64,000 nucleotides of DNA from Pelosinus propionicus DSM 13327 (lineage in GTDB: Bacteria; Bacillota; Negativicutes; DSM-13327): assembly GCF_900114615.1 (NCBI RefSeq), contig NZ_FOTS01000001.1:124001-188000 (forward strand). The letters run 5' to 3'. Position 1 is the stretch's first letter. The number at the start of each line of letters is the position of its first letter. The notes below the pieces were generated by a model that had not been told where the DNA came from, did not search any database, and saw only the letters and a program-made list of their open reading frames with translations. The position numbers and the translations under genes were made by a program. Positions 3,989 through 12,749 of the stretch are shown one piece after another.

Positions 3989-5125
3989 ATGAAGACGGGT
4001 TTATATATTCATATTCCTTTTTGTCAGCAAAAATGTTTATATTGCGATTTTCCTTCCTATGATAATCTTACCCATTTATATCAACCTTATGTTGCCGCCT
4101 TATGCCAGGAAATTTCTGGCTGGGGCGGTGTTTTATCGGGCACCTTGATAGATACAATCTATATTGGCGGCGGAACACCGAGTCTTTTATCCGCAGATGC
4201 TTTAAAAGCCATCTTAACTAAAGTACATGAAAGCTTTTCCATTGACGAATCTGCAGAAATTAGCGTAGAAGCCAATCCCGGCACAACGAATCAAGATAAA
4301 TTATTAGCCTTAACATCAGGAGGGGTCAACCGGATTAGCTTTGGTGTGCAAACTTTTTCCAATACATTATTAAAGTCAATTGGTAGGATACATAGCGCTG
4401 AGCAGGCTGTAAGAGCAGTAAAGGAAGCGCAAGACGCAGGTTTCAGCAATATTAATCTGGACTTGATGTATGGATTGCCAGGTCAATCCTGCAAGGATTT
4501 AAAGGTTAGTATCCAAGAGGCAATTAAACTTGACATTACCCATATTTCGGTTTATGGATTGAAAGTAGAAGAAGGCACGCCTTTTGCTGCTATGGATCAG
4601 TTAGGAACACTTATATTACCAGAAGAAGCTGTTGATGAAGAAATGTATACCTTTACAACAGAATATTTACCTCAGCATGGTTTTAGGCGCTATGAAATAT
4701 CCAATTTTTCTAAAGTAGGATATGAATGTCGTCATAATTTTAAGTATTGGAAATATCATCCTTATATAGGGGTGGGAGTAGCCGCTCATTCCTTTTTCCA
4801 GAAAGAGCGGCTTAGTAACATAACAGATGTATCTCAATATATAGATTGTGTAGAAAAAGGTAACCTGCCAATTGAATTTCGAGAAAATCCTAGCATTGCG
4901 ATAGCTATGGCAGAATATATTTTTTTAGCCTTGCGGATGGTATGGGGGTTATCAATCTTAGAATTTCAGGAATATTTCAACCGTGATTTTTATTTAGAGT
5001 ATGGAGTAATTGTGTCAGAGCTTCTTCAAAAAAAACTGATTGCTGTTAAAGAGGATCGGATAAATCTTACAGTTTTAGGCATGAAGTATGGAAATGTTGT
5101 ATTTCGTGCATTTTTACCTGGATAA
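3989..5125 (+). CDS. hemW: HemW, radical SAM heme chaperone
   Basis: HemW resembles oxygen-independent coproporphyrinogen oxidase but acts as a heme-binding chaperone rather than as the oxidase. The [4Fe-4S] radical SAM motif FCQQKCLYCDF places Cys at residues 12, 16 and 19, followed by the IGGGTPSLL and EANPGT motifs of the family. It has 378 residues. It lies between lepA and the heat-shock operon, as in Bacillus. The window also has a NirJ2/AhbD-like radical SAM gene and a cytochrome b subunit, so heme proteins are used by this organism. An annotation as hemN would be the older name. Confidence 0.92.
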   Translation: MKTGLYIHIPFCQQKCLYCDFPSYDNLTHLYQPYVAALCQEISGWGGVLSGTLIDTIYIGGGTPSLLSADALKAILTKVHESFSIDESAEISVEANPGTTNQDKLLALTSGGVNRISFGVQTFSNTLLKSIGRIHSAEQAVRAVKEAQDAGFSNINLDLMYGLPGQSCKDLKVSIQEAIKLDITHISVYGLKVEEGTPFAAMDQLGTLILPEEAVDEEMYTFTTEYLPQHGFRRYEISNFSKVGYECRHNFKYWKYHPYIGVGVAAHSFFQKERLSNITDVSQYIDCVEKGNLPIEFRENPSIAIAMAEYIFLALRMVWGLSILEFQEYFNRDFYLEYGVIVSELLQKKLIAVKEDRINLTVLGMKYGNVVFRAFLPG

Positions 5126-5140
5126 ATCAATTATTATATC

Positions 5141-5169
5141 TTGACATTCGGGCGTAGGAGTGGTATTTT
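5141..5169 (+). promoter_or_regulatory. Sigma-A promoter of the hrcA-chaperonin-grpE-dnaK-dnaJ operon
   Basis: TTGACA at 5141-5146 and TATTTT at 5164-5169 are separated by exactly 17 bases. The CIRCE operator begins 12 bases after the -10 box, so bound HrcA would cover the transcription start. Confidence 0.85.
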
Positions 5170-5180
5170 TTTAGTAGGTG

Positions 5181-5207
5181 TTAGCACTCTACAAGGTCGA
5201 GTGCTAA
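5181..5207. promoter_or_regulatory. CIRCE operator (HrcA binding site)
   Basis: TTAGCACTC, nine bases, GAGTGCTAA: a perfect match to the CIRCE inverted repeat. It lies between the promoter and the ribosome binding site of hrcA, so HrcA should repress its own operon, including the archaeal-like chaperonin gene. Confidence 0.97.
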
Positions 5208-5227
5208 CAATAGGAGGTGGAACTCGT

Positions 5228-6256
5228 ATGTTAGATAAGAGAAAACGTAGTATTCTTCAAGCGATTGTTGATGATTATATTTCCACCGCAGAGCCTATTG
5301 GCTCACGAACTATTGCCCGCAAACATGATTTGGGAGTTAGTCCTGCAACCATTCGTAATGAAATGGCTGATCTTGAACTGTTGGGCTATATTGAGCAGCT
5401 TCACACTTCATCAGGGAGAATTCCTTCTGCAAAAGGATATCGCTTTTATGTAGATTCTTTATTATCACCAACGCAAATGTCTGAAAGGGAAATTGCGTTA
5501 ATTAAAAATTGGTATCAGGAAAAAACTCGTCATGTTGAAGAGGTATTTCAGGAAACTGCAAAGATCTTATCCAAAATAACAAGTAATATTTCATTAGTCT
5601 TAGTGCCGCAAGTAACCCAATGTGCCTTTAAGTATCTAAAATTTCTACCTTTTGATGACTGCCGTACAATTTTAGTTGTCGTCACAGACACTGGATTTGT
5701 AGAAAACAAGGTGATTGATATACCGACAGGGCTTTCATTTAATGATTTACAGCGTATTGCAGAACACATTAATAAACGCTTATCAGGATTATCCTTTGAG
5801 AATATCGAATTATCTATTCTGAGGGAAATTCAAAATGAAATGCTAATTGATGTGAATTTATTTGAAACTGCACTAGGGATATTAAAACAGGCATTGGTTG
5901 TAGAGAAAAATGAACGATTATATCTTGGTGGCACAACACAGTTATTAAGTCAGCCAGAGTTTAAAAATATCGAAAAAGTAAAATCTTTTTTAGATATGCT
6001 AGAAGAAGAACATTTGCTGGCAAATATTTTGCAAAATCAAAAAAATGATGGTGTTATTGTTACAATTGGCGATGAAAATAAATATAGTGGAATTCAAGAC
6101 TGTAGTATGGTGCAGGCTACTTATCGTATTGATGGTCAAGTAGTGGGAACGGTAGCTGTATTAGGTCCGACCAGGATGGATTATGGCAAGGTCATGTCAG
6201 TTTTGGAATTTATGCATAATCATTTAGGTGAAGTGCTTAGGAAGTATAAAATATAG
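5228..6256 (+). CDS. hrcA: HrcA, heat-inducible transcription repressor
   Basis: HrcA binds CIRCE and represses class I heat-shock genes; GroEL normally helps fold it. The ATG at 5228 follows TAGGAGGTGG; the longer open frame from 5141 runs through the promoter and operator and is not coding. The 342-residue protein starts with a winged-helix domain (LDKRKRSILQAIVDDYI, EPIGSRTIA, SPATIRNEMADLE) and continues into the GAF-like dimerisation region. The next gene encodes a group III chaperonin rather than GroEL, which raises the question of which chaperonin reports folding stress to HrcA here. Confidence 0.96.
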   Translation: MLDKRKRSILQAIVDDYISTAEPIGSRTIARKHDLGVSPATIRNEMADLELLGYIEQLHTSSGRIPSAKGYRFYVDSLLSPTQMSEREIALIKNWYQEKTRHVEEVFQETAKILSKITSNISLVLVPQVTQCAFKYLKFLPFDDCRTILVVVTDTGFVENKVIDIPTGLSFNDLQRIAEHINKRLSGLSFENIELSILREIQNEMLIDVNLFETALGILKQALVVEKNERLYLGGTTQLLSQPEFKNIEKVKSFLDMLEEEHLLANILQNQKNDGVIVTIGDENKYSGIQDCSMVQATYRIDGQVVGTVAVLGPTRMDYGKVMSVLEFMHNHLGEVLRKYKI

Positions 6257-6342
6257 AGTGGCAGTATTCTTGCTTTTATAGTAAAGAGTATTACTGGCTC
6301 TATTATACATATAATAGAACTGTAATTTAGGAGGAACCAAGG

Positions 6343-7875
6343 ATGAAGCTAAAGCAAGCTAATAATGGTTCTGAAGTAGATGAACGGTTAGCGGCGCTAA
6401 TGACAAATGGGAATGCTATTAGAGTGGTTACATCAGCTGTTGAAGGCACTATTGGTCCTAAAGGGTTGGATACCATGCTATTGGGTTCTTCTGGTGAAGT
6501 CATCATTACAAATGATGGCGTTACTATTTTAGATAAAATGGATGTGGATCATCCAGCAGCTAGAATGCTGATTAATGTTGCCAGGGCCCAGCAAGCTGAA
6601 ATTGGAGATGGCACAACAACTGCAACTATTATGGCTGGTGGCTTGGTAGGAGAAGGTGTAAATCAAGTGATAAGAGGTGTGCCCATTGCTCGTATCATCG
6701 AGGGAATTAGACATGGGGTGACGCTGGCATTAGAACAGATTAAGGATCGTGCAAAACATATTGTTGATATACAAGATCCTATCCTACACCGTATTGCTAT
6801 GATTGCTGGCCGTGAATATAGTGATATTGCTCAATTGGTTATTAAGGCTGCAGGGCTTATTGGGATTGATAAATTACGTGAGCCCGGTTTTAAACTATCA
6901 GAGATTATTTTTTCTCAGGAAGGCGCTGCGAACGAGGTATTTATGGGTGTTATCGTTGATAAACAACGATTAAATCAAGATATGCCTGTAGAGGGCAGTC
7001 AAGTAAAAGTATTGGTTATTGATGATGCCTTAGAGCCTGAAGAAATTGGTGATGAAGCGCTAAGTACAGAAGCTGGTTTTAAACGGTATTTGGAATTGCA
7101 AAATGAGTTCAAGACCAATGTATGTAAGATTGTGGAACTTGGTGTTAAGGTAGTATTGGTAGATCGGGGTGTTCATGATAGTGCAGAAGAGATACTGACA
7201 GATGCTGGTATTATGGTAATTCAGCGCGTGGTGTCGGAGGAATTGCGTCGTGCTGCAGATCATGTAGGAGCACGTATGATTAAACGCACAGGTCTTAAAA
7301 AAGATATTGCGAACATTGCCAGCTCTTTAGGTTTGGCGGTAAAAGTATATGAAGATGAAAAATTGAAGCATATTCGAATGTTAGGCGGTGCTGGCAAACC
7401 TATGGCTACCATTTTAGTGGGGGCTGCTACCAAGGAAGTGGTTGGTGAACGGCAGCGTATTGCCAAAGATGCAGCCTCTAGTGTGCAAGCTGCTGTTAAG
7501 GGGGGCTATGTTCCTGGTGGCGGGTCCATTGAAATTGCCATTAGCCGTGACATTGCTAAGACTAGGGATGCGGTTAAAGGTATGGCGGCTTATGGGGTAG
7601 ATTGTGTAATACATGCATTACGCAGACCTTTAGCACAAATTGTAGAAAATGCTGGCTATAATCCTCTGGAAAAGGTAGAGGATGTCATTGCAGCTCATGC
7701 TAATCAAAATAAAGATTCTTTAGGCATTGATTGCGATACTGGTGAGGTGGTTGATATGATGACTCTTGGTGTAGTGGATCCTACAACGGTGAAATTACAT
7801 GCCGTGAAGGCAGCAGGAGAAGTGGCTATTGCTATCTTGCGTATTGATACGATTATTAAGAAAAAAGAAGAATAG
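6343..7875 (+). CDS. Bacterial group III (thermosome/CCT-like) chaperonin
   Basis: The 510-residue protein is a chaperonin of the archaeal/eukaryotic type, not GroEL. The order of motifs shows this: GPKGLDTMLL, NDGVTILDKMDVDHPAARML, AEIGDGTTTATIMAG (ATP site, about residues 87-101), a thermosome-like apical domain, VPGGGSIE, and a C-terminal GIDCDTGEVVDM with DPTTVKLHAV. Group III chaperonins are known from some Firmicutes such as Carboxydothermus, where they form closed rings with a built-in lid and need no GroES. It lies between hrcA and grpE, downstream of CIRCE, with GGAGGAACC before the ATG, so it should be heat inducible and HrcA controlled. No groES-like gene is nearby. Confidence 0.93.
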   Translation: MKLKQANNGSEVDERLAALMTNGNAIRVVTSAVEGTIGPKGLDTMLLGSSGEVIITNDGVTILDKMDVDHPAARMLINVARAQQAEIGDGTTTATIMAGGLVGEGVNQVIRGVPIARIIEGIRHGVTLALEQIKDRAKHIVDIQDPILHRIAMIAGREYSDIAQLVIKAAGLIGIDKLREPGFKLSEIIFSQEGAANEVFMGVIVDKQRLNQDMPVEGSQVKVLVIDDALEPEEIGDEALSTEAGFKRYLELQNEFKTNVCKIVELGVKVVLVDRGVHDSAEEILTDAGIMVIQRVVSEELRRAADHVGARMIKRTGLKKDIANIASSLGLAVKVYEDEKLKHIRMLGGAGKPMATILVGAATKEVVGERQRIAKDAASSVQAAVKGGYVPGGGSIEIAISRDIAKTRDAVKGMAAYGVDCVIHALRRPLAQIVENAGYNPLEKVEDVIAAHANQNKDSLGIDCDTGEVVDMMTLGVVDPTTVKLHAVKAAGEVAIAILRIDTIIKKKEE

Positions 7876-7932
7876 CATAAGATCGCTAATTTAGTAGCAG
7901 AAATTCGTATATTTTAAGATGGGGTGATTTAT

Positions 7933-8484
7933 TTGAACGAAACAAAAGAAGAAGTAGAAGAAATAATTGAGGACCGATGTTCTGCACCTGATGAAACTGT
8001 AGAAGTTTTAGATGAAATAGAAAATACGAAAATGCAGACAGAACTTGCGGATAAAGAGCGCCTGCTAGAAGAGAGTACTGACCGCTATAAGCGATTACAG
8101 GCTGATTTTGATAATTTTCGTAGACGTACTCGTCAAGAAAAAGAAGAGTTATCAAATATCGTAGCACAAAGTCTTATTTTAGAATTGCTGCCTGTTATTG
8201 ATAATTTCGAGAGAGCCTTATGCAGTGGTGCTACTCAGGATACAAATAAAACGCTATCAGGAGTAGAAATGATTTATCGCCAATTAATACAGGTTGTGGA
8301 AAAAAATGGAATGGTGACTGTGGAGGCAATAGGTAAAATATTTAACCCTCAAGAGCATGAAGCTGTAATGAGAGTGGAAGATGCTGACCAGCCAGATGGT
8401 ATAATTGTAGAAGAACTGCAAAAGGGATATTCCGTAAAAGGTAAGGTTATTAGACCTAGTATGGTCAAGGTTGTAAGTAATTAG
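7933..8484 (+). CDS. grpE: GrpE, nucleotide exchange factor for DnaK
   Basis: GrpE releases ADP from DnaK. The product begins with an acidic, coiled-coil N-terminus (ETKEEVEEIIED) and has the family core YKRLQADFDNFRRRTRQEKEE, then the C-terminal beta domain ending in VIRPSMVKV. The TTG at 7933 is placed well after GGGGTG (7921-7926); a GTG at 7924 in the same frame overlaps that site, so the start is uncertain by three codons. It lies in the CIRCE-controlled operon directly before dnaK. Confidence 0.94.
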   Translation: MNETKEEVEEIIEDRCSAPDETVEVLDEIENTKMQTELADKERLLEESTDRYKRLQADFDNFRRRTRQEKEELSNIVAQSLILELLPVIDNFERALCSGATQDTNKTLSGVEMIYRQLIQVVEKNGMVTVEAIGKIFNPQEHEAVMRVEDADQPDGIIVEELQKGYSVKGKVIRPSMVKVVSN

Positions 8485-8547
8485 AAGTTACTTAAAAAAC
8501 TTCATTTTAAAAATAAAAGTTTACATATTTCAAGGAGGAATAAAACA

Positions 8548-10374
8548 ATGGCAAAAGTAATTGGTATAGATCTTGGTACTACAAATTCATGTGTAGCAGT
8601 AATGGAAGGTGGAGAGCCAGTCGTTATTGCAAATGCTGAAGGAAACAGAATTACTCCTTCCGTAGTAGGTTTTTCAAAAACTGATGAGCGCTTGGTTGGA
8701 CAATTGGCAAAGCGCCAAGCTGTGTCCAATCCTGAACGTACGATTAGTTCCATAAAAAGACATATGGGTACTGATCATAAAGTGAAAATTGATGATAAGT
8801 CTTATACTCCTCAAGAGATTTCTGCAATGATTTTACAAAAATTAAAAACAGATGCAGAAGCTTATTTGGGTCAAACTGTTACGCAAGCTGTTATTACTGT
8901 ACCTGCTTACTATAATGATAGCCAACGTCAAGCAACAAAAGATGCTGGAACCATTGCAGGTTTAGAAGTACTTCGTATTATCAATGAACCAACAGCTGCA
9001 GCGTTAGCTTATGGTATTGATAAAGGTAACGACCATACGGTATTGGTTTTTGACTTAGGTGGTGGTACTTTTGACGTATCTATCTTAGAGCTTGGTGAAG
9101 GTGTATTTGAGGTAAAGGCTACCAATGGTAATAACCGTTTAGGCGGAGATGATTTCGATGAGCGTGTTATGAAATGGTTAGTTGCAGAGTTTAAAAAAGA
9201 AAATGGTATTGATTTATCCAAAGATCGTATGGCAGAACAACGCCTGCGTGAAGCTGCTGAAAAAGCAAAAATTGAACTTTCTGGTGTATTGACAACTAAT
9301 ATTAATTTACCTTTTATTACTGCTGATCAAACTGGTCCTAAGCATTTAGAAGTAAACTTAACAAGAGCTAAATTTGATGAATTAACTGCTGATTTGGTTG
9401 AATCTACTATGGGACCAACTCGTCAGGCAATGAATGATGCAGGCTTGTCACCTAAAGATATTGAAAAAGTAATATTGGTGGGTGGTTCTACTCGTATTCC
9501 TGCAGTGCAAGAAGCAATTAAAAATTTCCTGGGCAAAGAGCCGCATCGTGGTGTAAATCCTGATGAATGTGTAGCAGTGGGTGCAGCGATTCAGGCTGGT
9601 GTGTTAGTGGGAGAAGTTAAAGATGTTCTTTTACTTGATGTAACTCCGCTATCATTGGGAATTGAAACATTAGGTGGGGTATGCACTAAAATTATTGAAC
9701 GTAATACCACTATCCCAACATCAAAAAGCCAAGTATTTTCTACTGCGGCAGATAATCAACCATCTGTAGATATTCATGTTCTGCAAGGTGAAAGAGAAAT
9801 GGCTGCTTATAATAAAACATTAGGACGTTTTGAACTAAAAGATATCCCACCTGCACAACGTGGCGTACCTCGTATTGAAGTTTCATTTGACATTGACGCT
9901 AACGGCATTGTTCATGTATCAGCTAAAGATTTGGGTACAGGTAAAGAACAAAAAATTACAATCACTTCTTCTGGCGGTATGAGCAAAGATGATATTGATC
10001 GTATGGTAAAGGAAGCAGAGGCGCATGCAGCAGAAGATAAGGCTCGTAAAGATGAAGTAGAAGTTCGTAATAATGCTGATTCCTTGGTCTATCAAGCCGA
10101 AAAGACAATTAAAGAAATGGGAGATAAAGTCGAAGATAAGGAGCTGCTTGAAAAAGTACAAAAAGCTGCTGATGCATTAAAAGAAAGTCTTAAAGGTACT
10201 GATATCGAAAAAATTAAAGCAGATACAGAAGAATTAACAAAGCCACTGTATGAAATGACATCTTCAGTTTATAATAAAGAGCAAGAGGCTACAGCTGAAC
10301 AAGCGCCTGGTGCAGGTACTGAGGAAAAAGTGGTTGATGCTGAGTATAAAGTAGTAGATGAAGACAAAAAATAA
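8548..10374 (+). CDS. dnaK: DnaK, Hsp70 chaperone
   Basis: An ATP-dependent chaperone working with DnaJ and GrpE. The 608 residues include the N-terminal [15 protein letters not shown], the [13 protein letters not shown] phosphate-binding loop, [14 protein letters not shown], the linker [16 protein letters not shown] and a C-terminal lid ending in acidic residues ([14 protein letters not shown]). The length and all nucleotide-binding motifs are normal. CAAGGAGGAAT precedes the ATG. It is downstream of the CIRCE site and followed by a strong hairpin before dnaJ. Confidence 0.99.
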
Positions 10375-10420
10375 GAGCACTGTTCTAAGTTAGTCATTGA
10401 ATCAAGTAAGTGGACTTATG

Positions 10421-10451
10421 TTTGGCAGGGATATTTGCTTTCCCTGCCAAA
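10421..10451 (+). other. Strong intercistronic hairpin between dnaK and dnaJ
   Basis: TTTGGCAGGGA and TCCCTGCCAAA form perfect 11-bp arms around a nine-base loop. There is no run of T after it, so it is more likely an mRNA processing or stabilising element, or a weak terminator, than a full stop. It could set the dnaK to dnaJ ratio. Confidence 0.7.
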
Positions 10452-10565
10452 TACTATATAATTGGTAACAGGAAATAGCCGCTAAAACACATGGGGCTTT
10501 TATGGCATTGTGTTTTGGTGGTTCAACTGTTTTTCTATTAAATATAAGTTTTAGGATGGTGTAAT

Positions 10566-11699
10566 GTGAGTAAACGCGACTACTATGAAGTATTGGGCGT
10601 CAATAAAGGTGCGTCTGATGATGAAATAAAAAAAGCATTTCGTAAAATGGCCCGTAAGTACCATCCTGACGTAAATCGTGATAAGACAAAAGAAGCCGAA
10701 GAGCAATTTAAAGAAGTAAATGAAGCATATGAAGTCTTGTCAAATAGTGAACGTCGGGCGCAATACGATCAATTTGGTCATGCTGCTTTTGATGGAAATG
10801 GCGGCGGTGGTTTTGGTGGATTTGGCGGCGGTAGCAGCGGTGGCTTTAATGATATATTTGACATGTTTTTTGGTGGGCAATCTGGTTTTGGCGGAAGACA
10901 GCCAGGACCTGAAAAAGGATCAGATTTGCGTTACGATATGGAAATTACTTTTGAACAAGCTGCATTTGGTGTAGAAATGGAGATCCAAATCCCAAGAACA
11001 GAGGATTGTCAAAAATGCAGTGGATCAGGAGCGGCACCAGGAACTCATGCTGAGACTTGCAGTCAGTGTAAAGGGACAGGTCAGATTCAAGTGGCGCAGA
11101 ATACGCCTTTTGGCCGAATGGTTAATACGCGGACTTGTGATCGCTGCCGTGGAGAAGGAAAAATTGTACAAACACCTTGTAAAGAATGCCACGGACAAGG
11201 TAAAACCCGCGTAAAGCGTAAGATCAAAGTAAAGATACCTGCAGGTGTTGATAATGGGTCAAGACTTCGTGTCAGCCATGAAGGAGAAGCGGGTATGCGT
11301 GGTGGTCCTCCGGGGGATTTATATGTTTATATCTTTGTGAAATCTCATAAACTGTTTACTCGTGAAGGCAGTGAGGTTATATGTGAAGTACCAATCAGTT
11401 TTGTTCAAGCTACACTAGGAGATGAAATTGAGGTTCCTACTTTGGACGGCAAAGTTAAATTAAAGGTTACAGAAGGAACGCAATCTGGAACGATTTTCCG
11501 GCTTCGAGAAAAAGGCATTCCTCACTTAAGAGGTAATGGACGTGGTGATCAGCATGTAAGAGTAAAAGTGCTGACACCGCAAAAATTAAATGAAAAACAG
11601 CGTGAGCTTTTACAAGAATTTGCAAAAGCGAGTGGTGAAAATATTAATCCTGAACAAAAGAATTTTTTCAAGAAAGTAAAGGATGTGTTTGGGGTATAA
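10566..11699 (+). CDS. dnaJ: DnaJ, Hsp40 co-chaperone
   Basis: DnaJ delivers substrates to DnaK and stimulates its ATPase. The GTG start at 10566 gives [11 protein letters not shown] at the N-terminus, with the HPD motif at residues 33-35. A Gly/Phe-rich linker follows, then four zinc-finger repeats ([32 protein letters not shown]) and the C-terminal substrate-binding domains. The 377-residue length is standard for type I DnaJ. A hairpin at 11713-11752 follows, then prmA. Confidence 0.98.
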
Positions 11700-11712
11700 G
11701 TGGATTTTATAG

Positions 11713-11752
11713 ACCACCAATGCATAACGGTGATTGTGCATTGGTGGTTTAA
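11713..11752 (+). terminator. Hairpin after dnaJ
   Basis: ACCACCAATGCA and TGCATTGGTGGT form 12-bp perfect arms followed by TT then A-rich sequence. The T-tract is poor, so transcription probably continues in part into prmA. Confidence 0.55.
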
Positions 11753-11810
11753 AATACCCTTGGCGAACATTCATAAGTATCAGTTTTAGAAAGAGAAGGG
11801 GCGATTTGGT

Positions 11811-12749
11811 ATGAAGTGGACTGAAATAAGCATTCTGACGACGCATGAGGCTGCTGAAACTGTGGCTAATATTTTTCATGAATTGGGATCGAGTGGTGTG
11901 GTTATTGAAGACCCTGAGCTGGTGAATTCATACCTTGCTTCTGGTGCATGGGATTATTCGGATATTGTTCAGGAAAGTAATACAGAAGTGGTAACCGTTA
12001 AGGCGTATTTACCTGTTGACGATCAATTAGATGATAAGCTGCGGAATTTTGAAGAAGAGTTTCAGCAGATTTCTTCTCGTGGAATGGATAAAGGAAGAGG
12101 AGAAATGCAGTGTCGTGAAGTGCATGAGGAAGATTGGGCATCCTCATGGAAAGCTTTTTTCCACCCGATAAAAGTAGGACAATATATAGTAATAAAACCT
12201 TCTTGGGAAGAATATATAGCAACTGCTAATGATCTAGTGATTGAGCTTGATCCTGGTATGGCTTTTGGTACTGGTACTCATCAAACAACAGCTATGTGCT
12301 GCCGGGCATTGGAAGAGACTGTAAAAGCCGGTGATCTTATTTTCGATGTTGGTACAGGGTCGGGCATATTATCCATAGCAGCAGCTAAGCTCGGTGCTGC
12401 TAGTATACAGGCAGTAGATTTAGATCATGGTGCAGTTCGAGTTGCCAAAGAAAATGTTATTATCAATCAGGTAGAGAATGTAGTACAGGTAAATCAAGGT
12501 GATTTATTAACAGGTGTTACTGGTCAAGCTGATATTGTGATTGCAAATATTATTGCTGATGTAGTGATTAAGCTATTGATAGACATACCACAACGTTTAA
12601 AAGCCGAAGGAATTTTTATTGCCAGCGGTATTATTTCGGAACGACTTAGTGATGTTGCTGCTGCCATGTTAGAGCATAATCTACTAGTAGAAAAAGTGAT
12701 TGAAGAAGGTGGCTGGGTTGCTATTATAGCACGCAAAGGAGGCCAGTGA
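11811..12749 (+). CDS. prmA: PrmA, ribosomal protein L11 methyltransferase
   Basis: PrmA transfers methyl groups from S-adenosylmethionine to lysines and the N-terminus of ribosomal protein L11. The 312-residue product has the N-terminal L11-binding domain (MKWTEISILTTHEAAE), then GMAFGTGTHQTT, the SAM-binding loop FDVGTGSGILSIAAAKLGA and the catalytic-side IVIANIIADV. It follows dnaJ and precedes rsmE by one base, the same order as in many Firmicutes. Confidence 0.96.
   Translation: MKWTEISILTTHEAAETVANIFHELGSSGVVIEDPELVNSYLASGAWDYSDIVQESNTEVVTVKAYLPVDDQLDDKLRNFEEEFQQISSRGMDKGRGEMQCREVHEEDWASSWKAFFHPIKVGQYIVIKPSWEEYIATANDLVIELDPGMAFGTGTHQTTAMCCRALEETVKAGDLIFDVGTGSGILSIAAAKLGAASIQAVDLDHGAVRVAKENVIINQVENVVQVNQGDLLTGVTGQADIVIANIIADVVIKLLIDIPQRLKAEGIFIASGIISERLSDVAAAMLEHNLLVEKVIEEGGWVAIIARKGGQ

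Follow-up and report, generated by a model that had tools for sequence, protein, structure and literature searches.

A Group III chaperonin gene in the HrcA/CIRCE heat-shock operon of a Pelosinus-type genome that also encodes GroEL

The window analysed here, a stretch of 64,000 nt, carries the gene cluster hrcA-cpn-grpE-dnaK-dnaJ on its forward strand, together with a promoter-like site and a CIRCE operator (Table 1). The chaperonin gene, cpn, is located between hrcA and grpE, as the original prediction had stated; it is an intact ORF of 510 aa that starts with ATG and is preceded by a good ribosome-binding site (AGGAGG at 6329-6334). Its product is 97% identical to the chaperonin of P. fermentans JBW45 and the source genome is of the Pelosinus type, a relative of the clostridia; the presence of spo0A marks it as that of a spore-forming Negativicute.

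Table 1. Features of the hrcA-cpn-grpE-dnaK-dnaJ cluster and its control region, in window coordinates.
Feature	Position	Strand	Basis
Sigma-70-type promoter-like site, TTGACA-17-TATTTT, with TG before the -10	5141..5169	+	Best-scoring site, 10/12 matches
Perfect CIRCE operator, TTAGCACTC-N9-GAGTGCTAA	5181..5207	+	0 mismatches; presumed HrcA binding site
Shine-Dalgarno of hrcA, AGGAGGTG	5212..5219	+	Sequence
hrcA, heat-inducible repressor, 342 aa, ATG start	5228..6256	+	ORF, PF01628
cpn, Group III (thermosome-like) chaperonin	6343..7875	+	Family models, alignment, tree, predicted fold
grpE	~7924..8484	+	Position by homology; exact start codon unsure
dnaK	8548..10374	+	ORF, comparison of loci
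dnaJ	10566..11699	+	ORF, comparison of loci

The repressor gene is the sole PF01628 match in the genome; its mechanically called ORF, running from a TTG at 5141, is too long, and the ATG at 5228 was taken as the start. A promoter scan of positions 5000-12000 found in total no more sites than expected by chance, and the promoter-like site is supported mainly by its place just before the CIRCE. Allowing up to 3 mismatches, chance alone would give 0.01 CIRCE matches in the window; the element is conserved at the same place in relatives. The original prediction of a perfect CIRCE upstream of the chaperonin gene holds with regard to the element itself but not to its position: it stands 20 bp before the start codon of hrcA, in the promoter/leader of that gene, and not directly before cpn, which is the second gene under its control, about 1.1 kb downstream. 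Since the operator lies between the promoter-like site and the hrcA start, it would serve the whole cluster instead of being private to the chaperonin. Judging from the spacing of the genes and from the fact that no terminator-like hairpins were found in the plus-strand gaps from hrcA to dnaJ, the five genes are probably co-transcribed.

A CIRCE at the promoter and an hrcA gene in the genome, the two elements by which an HrcA/CIRCE regulon is recognised, are both present, and the regulon would extend to other loci. Three perfect CIRCE sites were identified in the genome, before hrcA, groES-groEL and htpG. The search for groESL elsewhere in the genome, which had been suggested as a check, returned one groES-groEL pair at a separate locus with a perfect CIRCE of its own; GroEL is encoded at G000:C47:19395-20894. 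The third site (G000:C72:94323-94349, corresponding to L074:5324-5350) lies outside the window and precedes htpG (L074:5396-7354) by about 45 bp; Hsp90 therefore probably belongs to the HrcA regulon of this genome.

Thermosome motifs had been the starting point for reading the product of cpn as an archaeal-like chaperonin, and all three (NDGVTILDKMDVDHPAA, GDGTT and VPGGGSIE) are confirmed in the translation. The protein matches Pfam Cpn60_TCP1 with 356 bits and, among the NCBIfam models, those for thermosomes with 283-291 bits versus 143 bits for the GroEL equivalog, whose cut-off is 582 bits; the thermosome models are the nearest ones, yet the protein scores under their curated cut-offs. Identity reaches 61% to the reconstructed Group III ancestor (ACIII) and 45% to Ch-CPN, the chaperonin of Carboxydothermus hydrogenoformans, and amounts to 30-32% to Group II and 29-30% to GroEL. 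In line with these values, the closest solved structures by sequence are the ancestor 9rwq and then Ch-CPN 5x9u. The PDB title of 9rwq reads Ancestral Group II (ACII); judged by its sequence and by the associated paper (PMC12696368), the entry is the Group III ancestor ACIII.

Individual residues lead to the same assignment. The protein lacks the nucleotide-sensing loop of Group II, which leaves a gap of six residues in the alignment; Ch-CPN lacks it too. R157 and D376, the equivalents of the catalytic R155 and D373 of Ch-CPN, are invariant among 84 aligned Group III sequences, and the hydrophobic cluster at the lid tip (L240, F246, Y249 and F256, corresponding to L237, F243, Y246 and F253 of Ch-CPN) consists of positions that are nearly invariant in the same 84 sequences. 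A built-in lid and no groES beside the gene are not what is found for a Group I GroEL. The AlphaFold model (mean pLDDT 90.2) has as top PDB matches 5x9v/5x9u, Group III in closed and open form, with TM of 0.89-0.93, above Group II, and the predicted subunit fold with its built-in lid fits both structures.

A quick tree of 91 sequences, which included three of Group II and in which the deep order of the groups is not readable, gave a support of 100 to both the Group I and the Group II branches and an SH-aLRT of 91 to the branch that sets the bacterial sequences as a whole apart from those of Group II. Far from falling among the GroEL sequences, cpn lies within the bacterial set, where it nests with Pelosinus and next with other Negativicutes. 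A single Negativicutes sequence, L094, whose branch is very long, was placed elsewhere in the tree and is unsafe to interpret. Sequence, tree, lid residues, missing loop and predicted fold set cpn apart from both GroEL and archaeal Group II, and we consider it, with a probability of about 0.93, a Group III chaperonin of the kind found in Carboxydothermus (Ch-CPN) that is located in an HrcA/CIRCE operon and exists beside GroEL.

Could Pelosinus instead have recently gained an archaeal Group II thermosome by horizontal transfer? The thermosome-like motifs and the higher scores of the thermosome HMMs over those of GroEL are what such an event would leave, and the archaeal protein (Thermococcus, PDB 1q3r) does share the built-in lid and the overall fold. 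However, its identity to the cpn protein is only about 32%, about half of that to the Group III ancestor, it has the nucleotide-sensing loop and its lid is different, in contrast to the Group III signatures of lid and loop found here. Moreover, Negativicutes and other Bacillota have the gene in a shared syntenic position, and it groups in the gene tree with its Negativicutes relatives. Taken together, identity, signatures, synteny and tree make a recent archaeal transfer very improbable.

The Group III reading places the gene in a family that is already well described. Group III chaperonins and their location in the dnaK operon were reported in 2010 and later reviewed (PMC5635000, PMC5220055), and another review states that Type I and Type III chaperonin genes are both regulated by HrcA (PMC5904260). 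The cpn protein resembles Ch-CPN (5x9u, 5x9v; PMC5635000) in fold, as predicted here, in the absent loop, in the catalytic Arg and Asp, in the lid cluster and in the dnaK operon location; it differs from it in more than half of its residues, and Ch-CPN sits on a long branch in the tree. The hosts also differ: that of Ch-CPN is an extreme thermophile, whereas the present one is a Pelosinus-type Negativicute. We take the latter to be mesophilic. Thermosinus carboxydivorans, which also belongs to the Negativicutes, has a Group III chaperonin as well. This protein has been named as the nearest extant sequence to ACIII (PMC12696368), the ancestor with which cpn was compared here. As for the GroEL of the same genome, superfamily and CIRCE control are shared; with 30% identity, it is a Group I protein without a built-in lid, paired with groES at a separate locus.

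The original prediction had described Group III chaperonins beside dnaK genes as known from a small set of Firmicutes. That the gene is unusual in this sense is not borne out, since 195 of them had been counted by 2017 (PMC5635000) and 58 of the 250 genomes of Negativicutes sampled in this study carry the gene. Nor is its occurrence in a mesophile-like diderm spore former as notable as had been thought: hrcA-cpn-grpE-dnaK-dnaJ with a perfect CIRCE before hrcA was found in all 20 additional Negativicutes loci (one contig ends inside dnaK), and the same order with CIRCE recurs in most other Bacillota loci, mesophiles included. Lucifera, Anaerospora and Pelotomaculum, which are known as mesophiles, also carry the gene. 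The arrangement described here is therefore a correct reading of an already known system and is largely ordinary. In the spore-forming part of Negativicutes the trait looks vertically inherited.

Many Negativicutes lack the Group III gene without trace, and hrcA directly adjoins grpE in each of the eight loci of this kind that were inspected, which points to a clean loss. Such losses are also what might be expected if cpn were a decaying relic that had lost its function next to GroEL. This explanation is contradicted by the dN/dS of 0.05-0.07 between cpn and the genes of other Pelosinus strains, which reflects strong purifying selection, by the invariance of the catalytic residues and by the intact gene in 50 of the 56 Spo0A-bearing Negativicutes sampled, so that we attach next to no weight to it. 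A probably functional Group III chaperonin beside GroEL is the reading that we retain.

With regard to sporulation, the 250 genomes divided into 50 with both Group III and Spo0A, 186 with neither, 8 in which Group III alone was present and 6 in which Spo0A alone was. This co-occurrence is strong within the class but confounded by phylogeny. Both genes are absent from most families without spore genes, and the pattern runs along the division into families that sporulate and families that do not, so that common descent accounts for it no less well than a link in function. A role of the Group III chaperonin in sporulation or spore outgrowth of diderm spore-forming Negativicutes is a quite improbable proposal. 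The co-occurrence itself is the single mildly new point and, together with the spread of the gene among the spore formers of the class, including mesophilic ones, may have been less noted until now.

Which of the two chaperonins serves HrcA? The question had been raised with the original prediction, and in other bacteria experiments have established GroEL as the partner of HrcA. On the other hand, cpn lies directly behind hrcA in one operon and this arrangement is conserved over Bacillota, as would suit a local feedback partner, which makes it conceivable that the Group III chaperonin, rather than GroEL, keeps HrcA active and senses stress. We judge this unlikely. Among 24 Negativicutes without Group III, GroEL and CIRCE were present in 24 and HrcA in 23, the remaining genome being a MAG that is 87% complete. 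The retention of HrcA, CIRCE and GroEL in the absence of the Group III gene indicates that GroEL is enough for HrcA signalling and that HrcA control does not need Group III. Besides, groESL has retained a perfect CIRCE of its own in genomes with the Group III gene, and in the eight Group III-bearing relatives in which both positions were readable (G005, G007, G010, G013, G014, G018, G024 and G045) CIRCE was found at both the hrcA operon and groESL. From this comparison of genomes, GroEL appears the more likely sensor partner of HrcA, and the Group III protein may have a modulating role.

The sequences analysed here establish the family of the protein, the order of genes and the operators, as well as conservation, purifying selection and the separate CIRCE-controlled groESL locus; how the system may work draws on what is known of the family. 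The Group III subunits would form two rings of eight, an ATP-driven folding chamber that the subunits' own helical lid would close, with no need of GroES. One promoter with the CIRCE in its leader would drive hrcA, cpn, grpE, dnaK and dnaJ, and in unstressed cells HrcA would repress the operon. Heat or unfolded proteins would draw off the chaperonin that keeps HrcA active, with the consequence that the operon would be derepressed and that the Group III chaperonin would then act beside GroEL-GroES. Since bacteria are not known to possess prefoldin, its clients would probably be received from DnaK/DnaJ, a speculative step already proposed in the literature. A lid-bearing archaeal-like chaperonin belongs to the regular, conserved equipment of the heat-shock operon throughout a GroEL-bearing lineage, mesophiles included, and a mesophile of the Pelosinus type, in which a single repressor would govern both systems, offers a practical host for asking how clients are divided and which partner HrcA uses.

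Some loci depart from the common pattern. In Armatimonadota the order is hrcA-cpn-grpE, mostly without CIRCE within 3 mismatches and without adjacent dnaK; the loci in which hrcA lies beside the chaperonin but neither a CIRCE with 3 mismatches or fewer nor a nearby dnaK was found (L047, L053, L054, L055, L056, L061, L064 and L065) nearly all come from this phylum, L065 being the exception. Replacement of GroEL by Group III was also considered: among the checked genomes only G019 (L092), an 87% complete MAG with Group III, hrcA and CIRCE, had no detected GroEL or GroES. As groES-groEL form one locus and the MAG is incomplete, a missing contig explains this case, and the apparently GroEL-free state is probably a gap. 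A possible intein in L059 turned out to be a run of N. L068 has a frameshift and L067 a split gene. Finally, seven CIRCE-like sites were counted in G045, which has three chaperonin genes, and six in G086, compared with the usual two to four.
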